Origin: a virus
Strand: one strand, 5' to 3'
Virus record (IMG/VR): IMGVR_UViG_3300025080_000078
Location: 1-21,132 of that record
Length of the DNA: 21,132 nucleotides
The notes under the pieces are model-generated. The model was not told the origin of the DNA and did no database searches. It saw only the letters and a program-made list of their open reading frames with translations. Of the stretch, positions 1,176 to 17,532 are shown in pieces. Position 1 is the stretch's first letter, and every line of letters starts with the position of its first letter. Both the position numbers and the translations under genes were made by a program.

Positions 1176-1559
1176 ATGGCTATCGCTGGTAAAAGCGGCA
1201 AACTGGGACTGGGTGTAAGCGCCGTTATGGATATAAGCAGCTGGTCTTTGGAGCTGGGGTCGGATACGCTTGAGGTAACGGCACTCGGCGATGACTGGAA
1301 GAAATTCATCGCCGGCTTAAAGGAATGGTCGGCATCGGCCGAAGGCTTCTACTCGGTGCATACGGACGCAACCGGCCAGAGGGCGCTGCAGGACGCGTAC
1401 TTAAACGGCACGGAAGTATCGCTCAAACTCTTTGTTAACGCCGTGAATTATTATTCCGGCAGCGCCCATATTTCCGGTCTGTCCGTAGAGGACCCGGTGG
1501 ACGACACGGTGAGCATTTCCTTTGAATTCCAGGGCACCGGCGCGTTAAGTTATGGTTAA
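1176..1559 (+). CDS. Phage major tail tube protein, short paralogue
   Basis: This 127-residue protein begins MAIAGKSGKLGL. It carries the signature WSLELGSDTLEVTALGDDWK, then F..GL.EWSASAEGFY and a C-terminal VEDPVDDTVSISFEFQGTGAL, which matches the tail-tube fold of siphoviruses (Phage_tail_2/TP901-1 type). Subunits stack as hexameric rings around the tape measure. The RBS GAGGAGGG lies just upstream. The gene at 2841 is a clear paralogue, separated from this one by an inserted AT-rich gene. After the stop, base composition changes abruptly to AT-rich. Confidence 0.85.
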   Translation: MAIAGKSGKLGLGVSAVMDISSWSLELGSDTLEVTALGDDWKKFIAGLKEWSASAEGFYSVHTDATGQRALQDAYLNGTEVSLKLFVNAVNYYSGSAHISGLSVEDPVDDTVSISFEFQGTGALSYG

Positions 1560-1568
1560 CATTAATCA

Positions 1569-1605
1569 TAAATAAGTATGTATAAATAAAATTATTACTT
1601 ATTTA
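1569..1605. repeat. Inverted repeat, operator-like, upstream of the DUF2089-like gene
   Basis: Perfect 10-bp arms TAAATAAGTA (1569-1578) and TACTTATTTA (1596-1605) are separated by 17 nt. A further half-site-like ATAAGTA lies at 1627-1633. The right arm overlaps the candidate -35 box. No long T-run follows, so it is less likely to be a terminator. It could bind the HTH protein encoded just downstream (inference). Confidence 0.45.
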
Positions 1606-1631
1606 CAATGTAATCACACATATGATATAAG
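1602..1631 (+). promoter_or_regulatory. Candidate sigma-A promoter of the inserted gene
   Basis: TTTACA (1602-1607), with a -10 of ATATAA after 17 nt or TATAAG after 18 nt (1625-1631), lies in a very AT-rich stretch 36 nt before the chosen start at 1667. A dedicated promoter is expected for cargo placed inside a late operon. The -10 match is moderate and its exact position is uncertain. Confidence 0.4.
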
Positions 1632-1666
1632 TAAGCTACAAGAAACTTATGGAGAGAGGTGTGCTT

Positions 1667-2773
1667 ATGGGGAAGGAAGTTGTTGGCTTTTGTCCCGTAT
1701 GTCATGGCAAGCTTATGGCGACCCAACTAACCTGTCACAAATGTGATCTTAACCTAACAGGAGATTTTTTGCTGAATCCCTATGCCTATTTAACGAAGGA
1801 GGAGCAAGACTTTGTGGCTTTATTTCTCGTAAGTGAAGGAAGCTTTAAAGATGTTCAGGCAAAGCTGAACATTAGCTACCAGAGAGCAAAACAAATGCTC
1901 TCGGAGATACTCGTGAAATTGCAATTGAAAAGTGACGGTGATGGGGAAAGAGAAAATAGTTATCTTCCTGAAATTGCAGAAAATATCAAGGTTAATGAGA
2001 GTGACCACTTTGTTGTGAAGTTGATCAAAGAGAAATTAATCGCAAATGGAGGTGTAGCCGTAATCCCCCTTATTACTGCTGGCAAGGAAGCAAAAATATG
2101 GTTTTCTCAAGACGGCTCAGGTTTAGAGTGTGATAAAATACCTATTCCAAACCAGTTGACTTGGGAAGCGTTTGTTGCGGCCTATGACATAGCAGTGGCT
2201 CAGGATGGCGAGCTTTATAAAGGATATGCAAGGTCTGGCAAGTTAGGTAGTGATAGATTGCCAGTTGCTTCTTTAGAGGGCTATATAGCCCATGAAATAC
2301 ATGGCGTTAAAATTGGCGGCTCCGCTTTTAGCCCTGGGTTTATCTTTGCGGCAGTTTTGGATTGGGTTGGGATATTAGTTAATGAAAGGGGGTCCACATT
2401 GAAAATTGTTCCAGAAACCGTGTGTGTTTCGTCATACGAGGAAGCCCTGAAAAATGCCAAGACTTTTCTAAAAGAACTTGATGATTCTTCTACGGTAAAA
2501 GATAGACTCGGTACTTTCAGGCATTGGTACTATTTTGAAGAGGTTGATGGCTTTGCTCCCAGTAAGTTTATTGGTTACAAGGATATGAATATGAAAGCTT
2601 ATGAAGTAGGGTTTAACGATGGCATGAGTGGACTGGTAACGGAACAAGCACTCAGGGGTCTTTTTAGGATAGCCGAGGGAGAAAGAAAGGAATTACTGCT
2701 TCGCGAGCTAGAGAGCTTTTTAGGAAGGTTTAACAAGAACCCCAACGCTGTAGCAACTATCCATATAAGATGA
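1667..2773 (+). CDS. DUF2089-like zinc-ribbon/HTH protein with a long unassigned C-terminal part (moron)
   Basis: This 368-residue protein is not a known tail component. Residues 9-26 form a zinc ribbon (C9-x2-C12...C23-x2-C26). Residues about 43-87 read LTKEEQDFVALFL...SF.DVQAKLNISYQRAKQMLSEIL, which closely matches the helix-turn-helix of the DUF2089 family. The remaining 280 residues are unassigned. They include a beta-rich middle part and a W-Y-Y...FAPSKFIGY motif near residues 305-325, a pattern I associate from memory with nuclease/restriction-type proteins but cannot verify. I chose the ATG at 1667 because GGAGAGAGG lies before it; the ATG at 1649 lacks an RBS. The gene is AT-rich, sits between two tail-tube paralogues, and has its own candidate promoter, operator and terminator. 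A DNA-binding regulator, defence or lysogenic-conversion role is inference. Confidence 0.75.
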   Translation: MGKEVVGFCPVCHGKLMATQLTCHKCDLNLTGDFLLNPYAYLTKEEQDFVALFLVSEGSFKDVQAKLNISYQRAKQMLSEILVKLQLKSDGDGERENSYLPEIAENIKVNESDHFVVKLIKEKLIANGGVAVIPLITAGKEAKIWFSQDGSGLECDKIPIPNQLTWEAFVAAYDIAVAQDGELYKGYARSGKLGSDRLPVASLEGYIAHEIHGVKIGGSAFSPGFIFAAVLDWVGILVNERGSTLKIVPETVCVSSYEEALKNAKTFLKELDDSSTVKDRLGTFRHWYYFEEVDGFAPSKFIGYKDMNMKAYEVGFNDGMSGLVTEQALRGLFRIAEGERKELLLRELESFLGRFNKNPNAVATIHIR

Positions 2774-2796
2774 ACACGATATTAATTCGGTTATAG

Positions 2797-2819
2797 GCAC
2801 TCCGCGAGGGGTGCTTTTT
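2797..2819 (+). terminator. Rho-independent terminator after the DUF2089-like gene
   Basis: A 7-bp stem, GCACTCC (2797-2803) with GGGGTGC (2808-2814), contains one G-T wobble, has the loop GCGA and is followed by TTTTT (2815-2819). It closes the inserted gene just before the RBS of the next tail gene. In the late operon it would need to be read through or antiterminated. Confidence 0.75.
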
Positions 2820-2840
2820 GTTTGAAAGGAGGCGGAAATC

Positions 2841-3455
2841 ATGCCCATTGCTGGTAAAGTAGGCGCGGTATTCCTGCAGACCGAGGCTGAGCCGGTGGCC
2901 TTTATCAAGGAAAGCGCCGCGGGCAACCCGCAGAGGACGGTCTACGCAATTGAAAATGAAGCCTTGAGGTATCTGGACAAGACGTCGCCGGTTGTGGTGT
3001 ATGTCAACGACATCGCGGCGAGCGGCGGATTTACCGTGGAGCACTTAGGCGGCGTGGTGCAGTTTTTAGCGCCACTGCCTGAAGGCGCCGAAGTGACGGT
3101 CAGCGGCAAAAGCATAAAAGTAGACCAGGCGGGCGGCTTCTTTAACTGGAGCGCCGAGCTTGCGGCGGACACGGCGGATATCACCACCTTTGCCAGCGAC
3201 GGCTGGAAGGAACACCTGCCCGCCATGAAGGGATTTACGGCCTCCGCGGAGAGCTACTGGGCGGACGGGCGCCTGTCAGCAAGGCTCGGTCAGGAGATCA
3301 TCGTGGCCCTGTATCTGGATACAGGTGCCAACAAAAAACGCTATGAGGGCTACGCGCTCATCGCAGGCGACAGCATTGAATTATCCGTTGATGATGTGGT
3401 AAGCGAGAGCATCGAGTTTGAGGGTAGCGGCAATCTGTATTACAGGGAGGACTGA
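2841..3455 (+). CDS. Phage tail tube protein, long paralogue with inserted domain
   Basis: This 204-residue protein starts MPIAGKVG, like the 127-residue tube protein. From about residue 96 it repeats the same fold signature: FFNWSAELAADTADITTF, then GFTASAESYW and SVDDVVSESIEFEGSGNLYY. Roughly residues 13-95 are an extra segment (VYAIENEALRYLDK...GGFTVEHLGGVVQFLAPLPEGAEVTVSG) absent from the short copy and resembling a small beta domain. It may be the main tube protein with a surface decoration, or one of two tube subunits. The RBS AAAGGAGG (2825-2832) is strong. The order tube-tube-chaperone-tape measure is kept apart from the inserted gene. Confidence 0.75.
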   Translation: MPIAGKVGAVFLQTEAEPVAFIKESAAGNPQRTVYAIENEALRYLDKTSPVVVYVNDIAASGGFTVEHLGGVVQFLAPLPEGAEVTVSGKSIKVDQAGGFFNWSAELAADTADITTFASDGWKEHLPAMKGFTASAESYWADGRLSARLGQEIIVALYLDTGANKKRYEGYALIAGDSIELSVDDVVSESIEFEGSGNLYYRED

Positions 3456-9580: not shown

Positions 9581-10213
9581 ATGAAACGCTATTTGTTTCG
9601 TTTCGCGCCGGAAAAGGAAAAGCGGGTGGCAAGTATCCGGGTTGACGCGCTAATGTCTGACGCCGCGGGCTCTTTTTCGTTTACGGACGTCATGCTCCAG
9701 GAAGGCAGGCATTTAACCGGCTACACCCAGAACACCAAGGAGATGCTGCAAAAACTGCGCGAAAACGGCAGTCCGGCTCAGCCGAAACACTACAACGCCG
9801 TGGTACGGGGCGCTAAAACCTTGATTGTCCCCAACCGCGGCGCCTACTGGGCGGTGGAGCTGGGGGCGGTAATCGTGCCCACGGCCCTGGACTTTCGCAT
9901 CAGGGCAAAGGAAAACTTGAGCAGAGGCATCGCCTTGGGGCAGAACCGGCTTACAAGGCTTTTTTATTTTCCGGGGGAACTGGCGAGTAACCAGGAGTTA
10001 GAGGTTATCGGCACTGACCGGCAAGTATTACAAAATAGCAGCCCCGTTCAGTTTAAAGGTCGGTTCCTCTATGCCGCTTGGGGGAATCCCCGCTTCCCCG
10101 TTACTCTCCTGGGGCTGGACGCAGGGCAGACAGCTCCGCGGCCGGAGCCTTCGGCCAGGATGATCATAGAGCTGCAGGAATGGCAGCTCTCGGAAGGGGG
10201 GAAACGGATATGA
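9581..10213 (+). CDS. Phage tail-region protein of unknown function
   Basis: This 210-residue protein starts at ATG 9581 behind AGGTGA. Residues 15-60 hold the FTDVMLQEGRHLTGY module shared with the 61-residue neighbour. The middle contains KHYNAVVRGAKTLIVPNRG and LDFRIRAKENLSRGIALGQNRLTRLFYFPG, which look like beta strands of a structural protein. It ends RMIIELQEWQLSEGGKRI. The gene overlaps the next by ATGA (10210-10213), so it probably belongs to the same tail-tip complex as the GH18-like protein. No known family is recognised. Confidence 0.7.
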   Translation: MKRYLFRFAPEKEKRVASIRVDALMSDAAGSFSFTDVMLQEGRHLTGYTQNTKEMLQKLRENGSPAQPKHYNAVVRGAKTLIVPNRGAYWAVELGAVIVPTALDFRIRAKENLSRGIALGQNRLTRLFYFPGELASNQELEVIGTDRQVLQNSSPVQFKGRFLYAAWGNPRFPVTLLGLDAGQTAPRPEPSARMIIELQEWQLSEGGKRI

Positions 10214-12720
10214 GCGGCATGCGGCAGGAAGGCCGGGGCTTTATGTCCTGGTCTTTTTTAAAGACTACCCGGGCCAGGCAGGAGTGGCGGGATTACGGCG
10301 ACAGGCTGACACACATGGGGCTGTTTGATTTTCTTGTGCCTGACAATACCGGCAGGATTGAGGGCACTATCCCCGCCGCTGATCTGGTAAGGGTCGGCCG
10401 CTGGCCACATATCACCCACTTGTTGACGGTCAGAAACGATGGCATCCTTTCCCGCTTTCGGGCCATCGTAGAGAACACCAACGGGGCGCAGGACATGTTT
10501 ATCAGCGAACTGCACCGTATTTTAGACATGTATCCCATCGCCGCCGGAGTGGACATCGACCTGGAAAAAGGGCTGAACGACAACCCGGACGGCGTGGTGG
10601 CCCTGGCGAAGCGCATCTACGAGAGCATCAAAAACCGACCGTCCCAGCGCTATGTGCATTGGGACTTGCCCCCGATGACTGGGGACGGCGTTCCATCCTG
10701 GGAGCGCTGGTGCGATTACCGCCGGATGGAGCCTTACTTTGATACCTGCGTGATTATGAGCTATGCCTTTGCCTGGGCGGGCAGCGCCCCCGGACCCATC
10801 AGCCCGGGGTGGTGGATGGAAGAAATCTATGACTACGCGGTGACGCGAATACCAAAGGGGAAAATCTTTCTCGGCATCCCCGGTTTTGGCTTCAACTGGC
10901 GCATTGATAGGCGTCCTGTCACAGGTGCTTACCGGGGCAGCGGCGGCACCTTCCTCGCCTGGCTTGGCTGGCAGCAGGGGGACTTTACTTATCATGAGCT
11001 GCAGCCGCGCCTCCCCTTTGCCGGTTTTCTGGACGAGGACAGCCAAAGCCCATACCTTCTCCTGCACATCTACGATTACCAGGAAGGCATGGACGCGGCG
11101 CGGACTACAAGCCCCATCTTTAAGGTTTCCGGCCAGGCGGGCCGGGTCAGACGAAATTACCTGGTCGCTTACGAGAAAGAGCCACGCTATGAGTTTACCG
11201 GGCAGGTCGCGGACAGGACAGGCAGCAGCTTTGATGAGATTACCGGCGCTATGCAAGTGGGCAGCGGCTGGATTTCTCCCAGGGCGCCCCAGCTTCTCCC
11301 CGTCCCGCCGGGTTCGCCGCCGGGAACTCAACCTGTGATGGAAGAAGAGGGCCTGGCCATCTTCTCGTTTTCCGTCCCCCAGTCGGGGGAATATGACCTG
11401 GCGGTAAGGGTGAATTGCCCCTGGTGGAACCGTCAGCTTTTGCAGCTGCGGCTAAACGGAACACCCATACAAATCGGACCGTTTCCCGACTGGTATCCCC
11501 TTCATCGCCGCACCCACTGGCTAAAGACTGGGAGCTTTCACCTGTCCGCCGGAAGCCACACCCTGGAAGTGCTGGGCGCGGGCAGCCAATACGGCACCCA
11601 GTTCTGGGGCTTTAGGGTCTGCTCACAGTTCAGCTTCAGCATGACCGGCGGAGAGGCGGAATTTGCCCTCACCCCGAGGAGACTAAAAAACGTAAACGGC
11701 AGCTGCGTACTGCCGGAGCAGTTTATTATAACTCCCGAAGTACTGCGAAGCGCTCCGGAGCACGCCTGGGTCTGGTATGACGACTTCCGGGACAACACGC
11801 TTGCCTTCTACAACCGTAGCGGCGGGGCTTGGAGCGTTGATACGGACCCGGCAAGGAGAATACTGATTCAGTCCGACCATGCAAGCGCTGATGCCCAGGC
11901 GCACCTATCCTATTATGGGTTTGGCGACTTAAATATCCGGGCCAGATTGCGCATGACGGCGGGGAGCGGCACTATGGGTGTGGTTTTCAAAGCTCAGGGA
12001 GCAAACGATCTATATCTGTTTTTGCTGCGGCGCAGCACGCAGACGGCGGAGCTGTGGCAAAGGACTGGCGGGATATGGACAAGGCTGCAGTCGGACGTAG
12101 CACAGAGTGTGAGACTGAATACCTGGTATACCCTGCGGATGCGAAGTCGAGGGAACGAGTTGCACTGCTGGGTAGGGACAACCAGGGTGTTTAATTTGAC
12201 GGCAACTCTCCCCGTCTCTGGTGGGTTTGGGCTGCGCACAAGCGGTGCGGCCTGTGAGTGCGGTTTGCTGGACGCGGGAGACCCCTATACTTATGTGCCG
12301 CAGGAAGCCCTTGACGTGGCTCTGCCGGATGGCCAAAGCCAGACACTGGGGCGCATTCAGCGCAGTGGCGTGACATGGCTTGAACCTTGGGACTATTTCC
12401 GCTTTGAAGGTCCCGGGGAAGAATCAGCGACCAGGCAAGAAAGCATCTCCACAGATTTTGACTATCTGCACACCGATTCTTTCGCGGCCTTCGACAGCGA
12501 CAGGGCTGTTACATTCCGGCTGCGCGACCGGGGGCTGTGGCTTACTCAGCTTTTCCTGGGAGACGCAAAGGGTTTCTCCATCGCCCATTATTCCGATGCC
12601 GAGCATTTCGATATGCTGGCCAACCTCGCAAAACACAGATGGGGCCTGAAAGGCATCGGATTATGGGCGCTCGGGCACCAAGACCCGCTGGTATTTCGAT
12701 TGCGTTCAGGAGTCGTTTGA
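10210..12720 (+). CDS. GH18-like tail hydrolase with carbohydrate-binding modules
   Basis: This 836-residue protein has a chitinase-like (GH18) core in residues about 30-240. It shows GVDIDLE with the likely catalytic Glu at 119 and Asp at 115 and 117, then CVIMSYAFAWAGSAPGP and KIFLGIPGFGFNW. The first Asp of the usual DGxDxDxE is Ala112. Residues about 350-475 resemble a CBM6/35-type sandwich, and about 520-690 a LamG/concanavalin-like fold. The end, AHYSDAEHFDMLANLAKHRWGLKGIGLWALGHQDP, looks like the last strand and helix of a GH18 barrel (Trp819), so the barrel may be split by the inserted modules. It is probably a tail-borne enzyme cutting cell-surface glycan. The start at 10210 overlaps the previous stop; an upstream extension of the frame lies inside that gene. 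Confidence 0.85.
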   Translation: MSGMRQEGRGFMSWSFLKTTRARQEWRDYGDRLTHMGLFDFLVPDNTGRIEGTIPAADLVRVGRWPHITHLLTVRNDGILSRFRAIVENTNGAQDMFISELHRILDMYPIAAGVDIDLEKGLNDNPDGVVALAKRIYESIKNRPSQRYVHWDLPPMTGDGVPSWERWCDYRRMEPYFDTCVIMSYAFAWAGSAPGPISPGWWMEEIYDYAVTRIPKGKIFLGIPGFGFNWRIDRRPVTGAYRGSGGTFLAWLGWQQGDFTYHELQPRLPFAGFLDEDSQSPYLLLHIYDYQEGMDAARTTSPIFKVSGQAGRVRRNYLVAYEKEPRYEFTGQVADRTGSSFDEITGAMQVGSGWISPRAPQLLPVPPGSPPGTQPVMEEEGLAIFSFSVPQSGEYDLAVRVNCPWWNRQLLQLRLNGTPIQIGPFPDWYPLHRRTHWLKTGSFHLSAGSHTLEVLGAGSQYGTQFWGFRVCSQFSFSMTGGEAEFALTPRRLKNVNGSCVLPEQFIITPEVLRSAPEHAWVWYDDFRDNTLAFYNRSGGAWSVDTDPARRILIQSDHASADAQAHLSYYGFGDLNIRARLRMTAGSGTMGVVFKAQGANDLYLFLLRRSTQTAELWQRTGGIWTRLQSDVAQSVRLNTWYTLRMRSRGNELHCWVGTTRVFNLTATLPVSGGFGLRTSGAACECGLLDAGDPYTYVPQEALDVALPDGQSQTLGRIQRSGVTWLEPWDYFRFEGPGEESATRQESISTDFDYLHTDSFAAFDSDRAVTFRLRDRGLWLTQLFLGDAKGFSIAHYSDAEHFDMLANLAKHRWGLKGIGLWALGHQDPLVFRLRSGVV

Positions 12721-14020: not shown

Positions 14021-14424
14021 ATGACCAACACGCAAAAACAGCGAATCGAATACTTACGCGGCAAAGGTGAGAGCTACGCCGCTATCGCCGACACAATCGG
14101 CGTATCCGAAAACACCGTCAAGTCCTACTGCCGCCGGAACAATATCGGCATCGGTGTGAAAGCCGAACAAGCCGCCACTGAGGACGCTTGTGCAAACTGC
14201 GGCCATCCCCTTGAACATACGCCGGGGTCGAAGCGGAAGCGCTTCTGCTCTGACAGGTGCCGTATGGCTTGGTGGAAGGCGCACCCTGAAGCCGTGAACC
14301 GCAAGGCGGTTTACCGTTTCGTCTGCCCGGCCTGCGGAGTAGGATTCGAAAGCTATGGCAACGCCGCCGCAAATACTGCTCCAGGGCTTGTTTCGGAGCG
14401 GCGAGGAAGGCTTCCGATGAGTAA
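14021..14424 (+). pseudogene. HTH plus zinc-finger protein, frameshifted near 14361-14370
   Basis: Residues 1-45 form a helix-turn-helix (SYAAIADTIGVSENTVKSYCRRN). A zinc finger follows with C57, C60, C76 and C80 (KRKRFCSDRCRMAWW), and a second begins with C102 and C105. After Asn114 the frame loses sense. One frame over, from 14365, the DNA reads RRKYCSRACFGAARKASDE and stops at 14422-14424, supplying exactly the missing Cys pair. A one-base loss around 14361-14368 has therefore fused this gene in frame with the next; the uninterrupted reading frame runs 14021-14656. Such HTH/zinc-finger genes head recombinase operons in clostridial elements, perhaps as regulators. A sequencing error cannot be excluded. 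Confidence 0.75.
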
Positions 14425-14656
14425 AGACGAGGTAATCCTACGCTACAAGTCAGCGATGGCAGTGTTCAAAAACTGGCTCTCCGAAGGCGTGATTTCCGGT
14501 GACGACCTGCTGGCAATAGACACAATGCTCGCCCAAAAGTACGGTTTATCCTCGTGCAGTATATTCCTCGAAAATGACTTGCTATGTAAGGAAAAAAGAG
14601 TGATATATGGTAGTGCGAAAGGAGGCCGTTATGGGCAGAAAGATAACGAAAATTAA
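14417..14656 (+). CDS. Small SHOCT-like protein of the recombinase operon
   Basis: This 79-residue protein starts at ATG 14417 with AGGAAGG (14404-14410) 6 nt upstream: MSKDEVILRYKSAMAVFKNWLSEGVISGDDLLAIDTMLAQKYGLSSCSIF. The helical 'F.NWLSEG.I...DL..ID..LA.KYGL' resembles the small SHOCT-like proteins often found between the HTH gene and the recombinases. Restoring the upstream frame makes an 8-nt overlap ATGAGTAA with that gene, a normal coupled arrangement. Its end overlaps the first recombinase by 26 nt. The function is unknown. Confidence 0.65.
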   Translation: MSKDEVILRYKSAMAVFKNWLSEGVISGDDLLAIDTMLAQKYGLSSCSIFLENDLLCKEKRVIYGSAKGGRYGQKDNEN

Positions 14657-15944
14657 ATCTACGGCACAGATGCCAACCAGACAGCGGGTCGCGGCGTATG
14701 CCCGCGTTTCCTGCGGTAAAGACGAAATGCTCCACTCCCTTGCCGCTCAGATTAGCTTTTACAGCAATCTGATACAAAGCAAGCCGGAATGGGAGTATGT
14801 CGGCGTATATGCCGACGAAGCGGAAACCGGCACGAAGGGCAGCAGGCCGGAATTTCAGCGGCTGATTGCCGACTGCCGGGCGGGGCGTATCGACCTCGTC
14901 CTCACGAAGTCAATCAGTCGCTTTGCGAGGAATACCGTCGTGCTGCTTGAAACCGTCCGAGAGCTCAAAGACCTCGGTGTTGGCGTATATTTCGAGGAGC
15001 AGAAACTGCACTCGCTTTCGGGCGACGGGGAGTTAATGCTCACCATCCTCGCAAGCTACGCACAGGAAGAAAGCCGCTCGGTCAGCGAAAACTGCAAGTG
15101 GCGTATCCGCAAGGACTTCAAGGAGGGCAGGCCCTCCAACAACATCCGCATTTACGGGTTCGACTACAAGGACGGCAAACTGACCGTCATTCCGGAGGAA
15201 GCCGAGGTCGTGCGGATGATATTTGCCGACTACCTATCGGGGCTTGGCAAGAACGCCATTATGAAGAAGCTGGTCAGGCTCGGAGTCCCCACCAAGTGCG
15301 GTGGTCGGTGGTCGGAAAGCACAGTGGGTTCAATTCTCAAGAACGAAAAATTCATCGGTGACACGTGCTTACAAAAAGGCTTTATCGCCGACCACCTTAG
15401 CAAGCAATGGAAACCAAACAGTGGCGAGCTGCCGAAATACTATGTCGAGGACTCACACGAGGCAATTATCGACAGAGAGACCTTCGAGGCAGTTCAAATT
15501 GAGATAGCTCGTCGGGCAGCAAAGGCAAACCACCCTCGGAGACTAACTTTCAGCGAATTTTCGGGAGTTATCACCTGCGAAAGGTGCGGGGCGAAATTCC
15601 GCAAAAAGGTGAACGGCATCGGCACAAAATATTCTAAGGTGACATGGGCTTGTGCAACCTACACCTATCGCGGCAAGCACGAGTGCGCCGCCAAGCGGAT
15701 ACCCGAAGATATTCTCAAAGAGAAATGCGCCGAGGTTTTAGAGCTTGCGGAGTATGCCCCCACTGTATTCACGGCAAAGGTTGCAGCGATAACAGTCCCC
15801 GACGACGGTATTATAGTATTCACTTTCAACGATGGCTCGGAGCGAATTGTCATTTGGGAGAACCGCTCCCGCCGCGAAAGCTGGACGGACGAGATGAAGA
15901 AAACCGCGAGAGAACGGGCGATGGGAGGTATTGACAATGGCTAA
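14631..15944 (+). CDS. Large serine recombinase 1, short form
   Basis: This 437-residue protein starts at ATG 14631 behind AAAGGAGG; an ATG at 14607 lacks an RBS. The catalytic domain shows RVAAYARVS with nucleophile Ser27, then LVLTKSISRFARNT and ASYAQEESRSVSEN. The recombinase domain follows (about 160-300, YGFDYKDGKLTV...TVGSILKNEKFIGD). A zinc ribbon comes next (CERCGAKF...WACATY...HECAAKRI, about 322-362). Unlike its neighbour it has almost no coiled coil and goes straight to a short end (IIVFTFNDGSERIV). It catalyses site-specific DNA integration or excision. It overlaps the second recombinase by 8 nt, so the two are probably made together and may act as partners. Confidence 0.93.
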   Translation: MGRKITKIKSTAQMPTRQRVAAYARVSCGKDEMLHSLAAQISFYSNLIQSKPEWEYVGVYADEAETGTKGSRPEFQRLIADCRAGRIDLVLTKSISRFARNTVVLLETVRELKDLGVGVYFEEQKLHSLSGDGELMLTILASYAQEESRSVSENCKWRIRKDFKEGRPSNNIRIYGFDYKDGKLTVIPEEAEVVRMIFADYLSGLGKNAIMKKLVRLGVPTKCGGRWSESTVGSILKNEKFIGDTCLQKGFIADHLSKQWKPNSGELPKYYVEDSHEAIIDRETFEAVQIEIARRAAKANHPRRLTFSEFSGVITCERCGAKFRKKVNGIGTKYSKVTWACATYTYRGKHECAAKRIPEDILKEKCAEVLELAEYAPTVFTAKVAAITVPDDGIIVFTFNDGSERIVIWENRSRRESWTDEMKKTARERAMGGIDNG

Positions 15945-17532
15945 TATCCGGGTTATACCCGCCACCGCCCCTATCCTCTCGGCTCAGGAGAGAAATTCGG
16001 CGGTCAAGCGACGCGTTGCTTTTTACGCTCGTGTCAGTACCGACTCCTCGGAGCAAAAAACCTCCTACGACGCTCAAGTGGACTACTACACAAAATTCAT
16101 TAAAAGCCATCTCGACTGGGAATTCGTCGGCGGGTACACGGACGAAGGCATATCGGCGGTGAATACCAAACGGCGCGAGGGCTTCAAACAAATGGTTGCT
16201 GACGGCTTGACAGGCAAATTCGACCTGCTCGTTACGAAGAGCGTCAGTCGATTTGCCCGAAACACCGTGGACAGCCTGACCACCGTCCGCAAGCTGAAAG
16301 AGGTCGGCTGCGAGATTTGGTTCGAGGAGCAGAACATATATACCTTGGACAGCAAGGGCGAATTGCTGATTACGATAATGTCCTCGCTGGCGCAGGAAGA
16401 GAGCCGCTCTATTTCGGAAAACGTGACTTGGGGTCAGCGCAAGCGCATGGCCGACGGCAAGGTGAGCCTTCCGTATGCCCAGTTCCTCGGTTACGAAAAG
16501 GGCGAGGACGGTTTGCCGAAGGTAGTCCCTGCCGAAGCGGATATTGTGCGGCTGATATTCAGGCTGTATATGGAGGGCAAGACCTTCTCGGCAATCGCCA
16601 AGTATCTCGGCAGTTATGGCATCCCTTCACCGGCGGGCAGAAAAACATGGCAGACGGCGGTGGTGCGGTCAATCCTGACCAACGAAAAATACAAAGGCCA
16701 CGCGCTTCTGCAAAAGACCTACTGCTCGGACTTCCTCACCAAGCAGATGGTCAAGAACACTGGCCAGGTACAGCAATATTACGTCGAGGACAGCCATCCC
16801 GCCATCATCGAGCCGGACGAATTTAACGCGGTTCAGCTGGAAATAGAGCGCCGCCGCTCGATTGGCAAACCGACAAGCTGCACGAGCATTTTCGCGGCGA
16901 AGATTCTTTGCGCCGACTGCGGTGGGTGGTTTGGCAAAAAGGTCTGGGGCAGCTACAAGGGCGATAAGACTTACCGAAAGGAGGTCTGGCAGTGCAACGA
17001 CAAGTATAAACGGCTCGGCAAGCCGGGCAAGGGCTGCAGTACGCCGCATATCACCGAGGACGAAATCAAATCCCGTTTCCTCACAGGCTTCAACAGCCTG
17101 ATGAGCGACCGCGACGGGTTGATCGAGGACTGCCGCCTTGCCCAGAGCGTCCTCTGCGACACCGCTGCGATTGACGCCGAGCTCGCCGAACTGCACCGCG
17201 AGATTGAGGTAGTCACGGAACTTTCCCGAAAGGCCATCTACGAAAACGCCCGGACCGCCGTCAACCAGACGGAATGGGCGGAGCGCAACAAGGCCTACCT
17301 TGAACGCCACCGCAAAGTCTTGGAACGGGTTGACGAGTTGGAAGCCGCCAAGCGGGAGCGGCTCGGCAAAGCGAAGATCATCGAGGGCTTCATTCGGGAC
17401 ATCGAGAGCCGACCGCTTGTCATCACGGAATTTGTTGAAAAGCTATGGCTTGCAGTCGTTGACCAAGCGACCGTTGGCAGGGACGGCACTTTTGTCTTCA
17501 GGCTCAGGAACGGATCGGAAGTCAGCACTTAA
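15937..17532 (+). CDS. Large serine recombinase 2, full-length
   Basis: This 531-residue protein starts at ATG 15937, 8 nt after GGGAGG; a TTG at 15931 is too close to the RBS. It contains RRVAFYARVS with Ser34, LLVTKSVSRFARNT, SSLAQEESRSISEN, and a recombinase domain (about 175-300). A zinc ribbon follows (CADCGGWFGKK...WQCNDKY...KGCSTPHI, about 325-370), then a long charged coiled coil (about 405-490) and the end TFVFRLRNGSEV. The coiled coil in this class helps synapse att sites and controls directionality. As the complete member of the pair it is the likelier main integrase. Location directly after the lysis genes suggests the attachment site lies just downstream. Confidence 0.95.
   Translation: MANIRVIPATAPILSAQERNSAVKRRVAFYARVSTDSSEQKTSYDAQVDYYTKFIKSHLDWEFVGGYTDEGISAVNTKRREGFKQMVADGLTGKFDLLVTKSVSRFARNTVDSLTTVRKLKEVGCEIWFEEQNIYTLDSKGELLITIMSSLAQEESRSISENVTWGQRKRMADGKVSLPYAQFLGYEKGEDGLPKVVPAEADIVRLIFRLYMEGKTFSAIAKYLGSYGIPSPAGRKTWQTAVVRSILTNEKYKGHALLQKTYCSDFLTKQMVKNTGQVQQYYVEDSHPAIIEPDEFNAVQLEIERRRSIGKPTSCTSIFAAKILCADCGGWFGKKVWGSYKGDKTYRKEVWQCNDKYKRLGKPGKGCSTPHITEDEIKSRFLTGFNSLMSDRDGLIEDCRLAQSVLCDTAAIDAELAELHREIEVVTELSRKAIYENARTAVNQTEWAERNKAYLERHRKVLERVDELEAAKRERLGKAKIIEGFIRDIESRPLVITEFVEKLWLAVVDQATVGRDGTFVFRLRNGSEVST

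Follow-up and report, generated by a model that had tools for sequence, protein, structure and literature searches.

A single-gene cassette between two tail-tube genes of a virus encodes a putative self-regulated DNA-binding protein with a domain found near defence genes

The window analysed here comprises positions 1 to 21,132 (21,132 nucleotides) of the IMG/VR record IMGVR_UViG_3300025080_000078. The record is a fragment of a virus, and the phage relatives with which it was compared are metagenomic contigs. Head, tail and lysis genes fill its first 14 kb, and a one-gene, AT-rich cassette (about 1560-2823) lies among them between two tail-tube genes, on the same strand as both (Table 1). The tube genes are paralogues, both belonging to phrog_1407. 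With a GC content of 0.404 versus 0.582 for the flanking operon, the cassette differs in base composition from its surroundings, as is typical of a moron. The open reading frame spans 1649/1667-2773; its conserved start is the ATG at 1667, 5 nt downstream of a ribosome-binding site that is conserved as AGAGGTGYGC in homologous cassettes. All full-length homologues begin with M-x-K-E-V, and the protein length of 368 aa given in the original prediction is therefore right. The prediction had also described an AT-rich gene with a promoter, an operator-like repeat and a terminator between the paralogous tube genes, and this description was borne out, with counterparts in the homologous cassettes. 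Elsewhere in the window, positions 10078-12720 encode a very long tail-region protein, the N-terminal part of which we take to resemble a glycoside hydrolase 18-type domain. At 14607-17532, two large serine recombinase genes lie side by side, as in the related phage L068. The gene just ahead of this pair (14021-14656) encodes a product that combines a SHOCT_2 domain (PF20612, 1.1e-10) with an HTH and zinc-finger-like stretches rich in Cys.

Table 1. Coordinates of the cassette, its signals, the protein modules and the flanking genes in the window.
Feature	Position	Strand	Remarks
Tail-tube gene 1 (context)	1176..1559	+	PF06199; phrog_1407, E 1.5e-23
Candidate operator: inverted repeat TAAATAAGTA-N17-TACTTATTTA	1569..1605	.	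right arm overlaps -35 hexamer
Promoter, -35 TTTACA, 18-bp spacer, -10 TATAAG	1602..1631	+	sigma-70-type; TTGACA/TTTACA in all homologous cassettes
Ribosome-binding site GAGAGAGGTG	1652..1661	+	sequence; AGAGGTGYG kept in L001, L002, L009, L067
Cargo gene, 368 aa, three modules	1667..2773	+	dN/dS 0.18 vs L002
Module A: DUF2089 zinc ribbon (residues 9-38) and HTH (42-87)	1691..1927	+	PF22747 and PF09862
Module B (residues 111-248)	1997..2410	+	independent module in L013, L014, L015, L016, L035, L048, L068
Module C (residues 253-368), WYY...FAPSKFIGY	2423..2770	+	independent module, alone or with HNH
Intrinsic terminator, hairpin and T-run	2796..2823	+	same hairpin type in L001, L002, L009, L067
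Tail-tube gene 2 (context)	2841..3455	+	phrog_1407, E 1.4e-13

Relatives were gathered with tube gene 1 as bait, giving 80 loci. Sixteen relatives carry both tube genes without the cassette, at a spacing of 20-21 bp, against 1285 bp when the window is measured in this way; the cassette is thus absent from close relatives in which the flanking genes are adjacent. Relatives with negative gaps (one tube gene matched by both queries) and L089, which is cut at a contig end, were excluded from this count, and the long tube gap of L149 was rejected as cargo, a further tube-like gene being present there. Full-length homologues were found in three other phages (L001, 65% identity to the window protein; L009 and L067, both 61%), where the cassette sits between a gp6-like connector gene and a gp16-like head-completion gene, and a partial one in L059, a contig that starts within module C and continues into a gp16-like gene. 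Of these, L067 tells the most: it has a tube gene 1 that is 84% identical to that of the window, and its tube genes retain the empty 21-bp spacing while its cassette occupies the connector/gp16-like slot; in the window, the connector-gp16 junction near 66 is uninterrupted. The CACTCC...GGGGTG hairpin, the promoter layout and the ribosome-binding site move together with the gene, and L001, L002, L009 and L067 each keep a promoter and a terminator for the cassette, so that this moron feature is conserved across slots. That three phages have this cassette in a different slot and 16 relatives have empty sites agrees with the moron layout that had been proposed, and sequence comparison thus gives good support to the cassette being a moron (cargo gene). 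Since only four complete homologues and one partial one were found, sampling of the cassette's recent history is sparse; the GenBank phage collection contained no homologue of the cargo protein and none of a standalone C domain.

The same-strand position between two tube genes would suit a tail structural or assembly gene, or one that regulates the late operon of the phage itself. However, the gene is missing in the 16 relatives with the same operon and takes a different slot in others, its own terminator precedes tube gene 2, and it is intact in a contig with broken tube genes (L002). Because its position varies and relatives lack it, the gene is not a conserved member of the tail operon, and we rejected both the structural and the late-regulatory role, which we consider extremely improbable. 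Homologues are not confined to tail operons or devoid of a promoter and terminator, as the slots vary and proteins with modules A and B or with module C occur elsewhere, and none of the matches found was to a tail component. L002, on a contig from a metagenome-assembled genome of a Bacillota bacterium, is a decayed prophage with the cassette between tube genes 1 and 2, as in the window. Of its tube gene 1 only residues 71-127 remain, and tube gene 2 is frameshifted and cut off. The cargo gene is an open reading frame, 88% identical and with a dN/dS of 0.18 (0.07 for L001 versus L009), and its persistence beside broken tube genes is the pattern expected of a gene serving the host. Among 98 genomes of the class of the L002 host, module B was found in the L002 genome only.

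Further insertions were seen in the late operons of the relatives. The slot between the two tube genes holds two AT-rich genes with their own terminator in L093 (5391-6385), neither with a Pfam match, and inserts of about 700 bp are found between tube gene 2 and the chaperone gene in L075, L079 and L138. The insert of L075 (3239-3811) is a gene of the uracil-DNA-glycosylase superfamily (PF03167, 1.2e-9), and that of L079 (6011-6735) ends in its own hairpin terminator. An extra gene of 194 aa lies between the portal and protease genes of L009 (1153-1737) and is not there in L001 and L067; its site is possibly a further cargo slot. Upstream of the portal gene of L067 is a partial gene (1-411), the product of which presumably resembles an Abi_2-type abortive infection protein. 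The slots in one late operon (connector genes, tube 1/tube 2 and tube 2/chaperone) are places to seek more cargo.

The inverted repeat at the promoter of the window is perfect, with 10-bp arms, and a repeat as good was obtained in 5 of 300 dinucleotide shuffles. It is a single copy within the window, to which this search was confined. A palindrome ending at the -35 hexamer, TATGTRA-N13-TYACATA, is also found in L001, L009 and L067. Both of its arms covary in L067 (TATGTAA/TTACATA versus TATGTGA/TCACATA), the palindromes of L009 and L067 were equalled in none of 300 shuffles, and among 156 loci the motif was found in these three contigs only, once each. The window palindrome is unlike these in sequence and spacing, and scoring against shuffles revealed no outstanding palindrome in the promoter region of L002. 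The promoter of L068 has, by eye, a comparable but weaker repeat, TAGTTAGTAATA-A-TATTAACAACTA, directly adjoining its -35, and the top-scoring repeat sits further upstream, before a T-run. The placement at the -35 is retained in most homologous cassettes, and equivalents of the terminator are present in all of them. The layout suggests that the cargo protein likely autoregulates through the candidate operator, though the operator is not uniform across homologues.

The protein itself consists of three modules, and these recombine among homologues. In keeping with the original prediction for the first 90 residues, Pfam identified a DUF2089 zinc ribbon (34.8 bits) and a DUF2089 HTH (44.7 bits), both exceeding the gathering cut-offs. 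The modelled HTH resembles LuxR/NarL-type domains in Foldseek searches, consistent with PMC2686095. The window protein thus shares the CxxC...CxxC zinc ribbon and LuxR/NarL-like HTH of DUF2089 proteins, which have a zinc ribbon, an HTH and a SHOCT-like tail (PMC11237479), but has modules B and C in place of this tail; a SHOCT-like C-terminal domain was not matched in the cargo protein, in which residues 91-368 correspond to modules B and C. The remaining 280 residues, which had been called unassigned, form two separate modules and not a single block; neither module has a Pfam match, and PDB profile searches stayed at chance level for both. Proteins combining modules A and B include that of L013 (49% identity), followed by an overlapping Fic gene (PF02661), that of L014 (44% identity), which has a different C-terminal extension, and those of L015 and L016, which are encoded in bacterial genomes and have no module C. 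Another follows two recombinase genes of L068, a phage with a holin and an amidase resembling those of the window. The A+B gene and the overlapping downstream Fic gene of L013 (1450-3023) are laid out like a two-gene toxin module. Module B without A is found in L035 and L048, and a viral scan with B-only proteins returned nothing.

Module C carries the W-Y-Y...FAPSKFIGY motif that had been pointed out in the original prediction, at residues 287-289 and 296-304. This is the most conserved part of what is a widespread domain, and W287, Y288, P298, Y304 and Y312, around PSKFIGY, are among its most conserved residues. Module C ranges over Bacillota, Proteobacteria, plasmids and phages, either alone or with an HNH domain, and most C proteins are without any nuclease. 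An AlphaFold run with 3 sequences gave a pLDDT of 38; with 12 sequences, the ten-residue means of module C reached 80-95, with one block at 65, while the HTH scored 63-78 and module B mostly below 55. Modelling beyond residue 90 was thus confident for C and not for B. Foldseek searches against PDB and BFVD gave nothing at E <= 0.001; the best PDB matches were to HTH domains and spanned about 50 residues, and nothing informative was obtained for B or C. On these searches, B and C are undescribed modules.

The genes surrounding module C in other genomes were inspected by hand in an unsystematic sample, in which some C genes have ordinary neighbours. In phage L064, a gene for C and HNH has a portal gene (PF04860) on one side and a GPA replication gene (PF05840, 1.1e-104) on the other, exactly within the P2-type gpQ-gpA slot known as a hotspot of antiviral genes (PMC9122126), and in L061 a gene for C alone adjoins a portal gene that likewise belongs to this portal family; the window cassette, in contrast, is in another phage group and another slot. 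C alone is also encoded next to TerS in L062 and between TerL and TerS in L060, and the slot between the terminase genes is that of the defence moron Tab of Pseudomonas phage JBD26 (PMC10884400). Like the window gene, tab is an extra gene in the late operon with its own promoter and is missing from close relatives. Tab, however, is a protein of 83 aa without a DNA-binding domain that acts on tail assembly (PMC10884400), while the window protein is a DNA-binding protein of 368 aa whose gene lies in another slot, runs in the direction of the operon and has a palindrome and a terminator of its own. Outside phages, a C gene lies directly upstream of gajA and gajB of Gabija (L006; PADLOC 2.8e-230 and 2e-236), near a BglII-type gene (L046; PF09195, 6.3e-48), about 3 kb from a PbeA homologue (L051; PADLOC 3.1e-180), and adjoining the genes of an RNase_T-EVE protein (L050) and of an SMC/SbcC-like ATPase and a metallophosphoesterase (L049). 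A defence association of module C is consistent across this sample. The cargo protein itself matched no PADLOC model.

Proteins with C at the N-terminus and HNH at the C-terminus are encoded by two phages (L063:996-1757 and L064:4986-5813) and by a Pseudoalteromonas plasmid (L005:5022-5756). The HNH half of L064 matches EcoKMcrA (2.9e-19) and the PADLOC model mREase_IV (9.8e-20), and the C-domain relatives L064, L063 and P0007 have a C-terminal HNH half, as McrA has; such proteins may be restriction-type enzymes whose recognition domain is new. In contrast to EcoKMcrA-type enzymes, the window protein has no HNH domain by Pfam, this being present only in its C-domain relatives, and no similarity between C and the N-terminal domain of McrA could be detected. 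Identity with the latter had seemed attractive, as the HNH match begins about equally far from the N-terminus, and was rejected with an hhalign probability of 0.1% against EcoKMcrA. Alternatively, the cassette might derive from a homing-endonuclease-like element. Module C would then correspond to the DNA-binding half of HNH endonucleases that are free-standing and insert themselves between late genes, and the present copy would have lost the nuclease. C and HNH genes do lie between structural genes in L063 and L064 (in L063, where the second domain reads as HNH, between what by eye are tail genes on the opposite strand), but the HNH is of the McrA type, most C proteins have no nuclease, nuclease-free homologues occupy several slots, and the cassette has its own promoter, candidate operator and terminator together with a DUF2089 regulator. 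We therefore consider such an origin very improbable. A cargo protein produced from the prophage or late in infection could instead neutralise a defence of the host or a rival, for instance restriction or Gabija, and the proximity of C to Gabija and restriction genes also fits an immunity or modulator role of this kind. The fusion of C to HNH, however, argues for an attacking enzyme, and standalone C copies on plasmids and chromosomes are hard to explain by counter-defence, which is improbable in our judgement.

A role outside defence was also considered, where the moron encodes an autoregulated lysogenic-conversion regulator, with B-C sensing a metabolite or stress and the protein altering host expression in favour of the lysogen. 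The DUF2089 HTH and the palindrome at its own promoter agree with such a regulator, as do the A+B proteins lacking C in bacterial genomes and the stress-response contexts in which DUF2089 has been placed (PMC11237479). On the other hand, a plain metabolite sensor leaves unexplained why C is common to McrA-type nucleases and neighbours of Gabija, and the palindrome has no second copy in the phage. This role is possible, although we are doubtful of it.

The other slots used in related viruses, and the frequent position of module C beside anti-virus genes, suggest that the cargo gene probably helps the host cell and not virus building. The suggestion in the original prediction that it might sense or block competing phages is backed by circumstantial evidence, namely the genomic surroundings and fusion partner of the C domain (P2-type hotspot, Gabija and McrA-type HNH), and it is from this that we infer an anti-phage role. 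We give about an even chance to a single-gene moron that is expressed in the lysogen and encodes a self-regulated DNA-binding protein, with C as a defence-associated reader or effector. In this model, the prophage would express the cassette and the lysogen would gain from it, and the protein, probably as a dimer, would bind the palindrome at its own -35 and keep its own expression low. A-B may serve as a DNA-binding regulatory platform with exchangeable partners, namely a Fic gene (L013), another extension (L014) or C (window). As the cassette has one gene, C would have to be the effector or the sensor, and its place before the McrA-like HNH, in the position of the recognition half, leads us to favour a module that recognises nucleic acid of an invading phage as foreign or unusual; the fold of C being unmatched, the notion of a reader depends on this position. 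Upon engagement, the protein might block the invading DNA directly, or leave the operator and accumulate, in either case interfering with the competing phage. We advance more tentatively, as rather unlikely in its full form, that C reads phage nucleic acid and in some phages and plasmids provides McrA-type nucleases with their recognition half. Joined here to the DUF2089 zinc ribbon-HTH, C would form part of a nuclease-free, self-regulated immunity protein that works through DNA binding and has the promoter palindrome as its operator.

The analysis defines two hitherto undescribed protein modules, and module C links a Bacillota prophage moron to McrA-type nuclease genes of phages and a plasmid and to a plasmid gene beside Gabija. 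If C reads foreign nucleic acid, the cassette would offer a testable route to a new family of prophage immunity.
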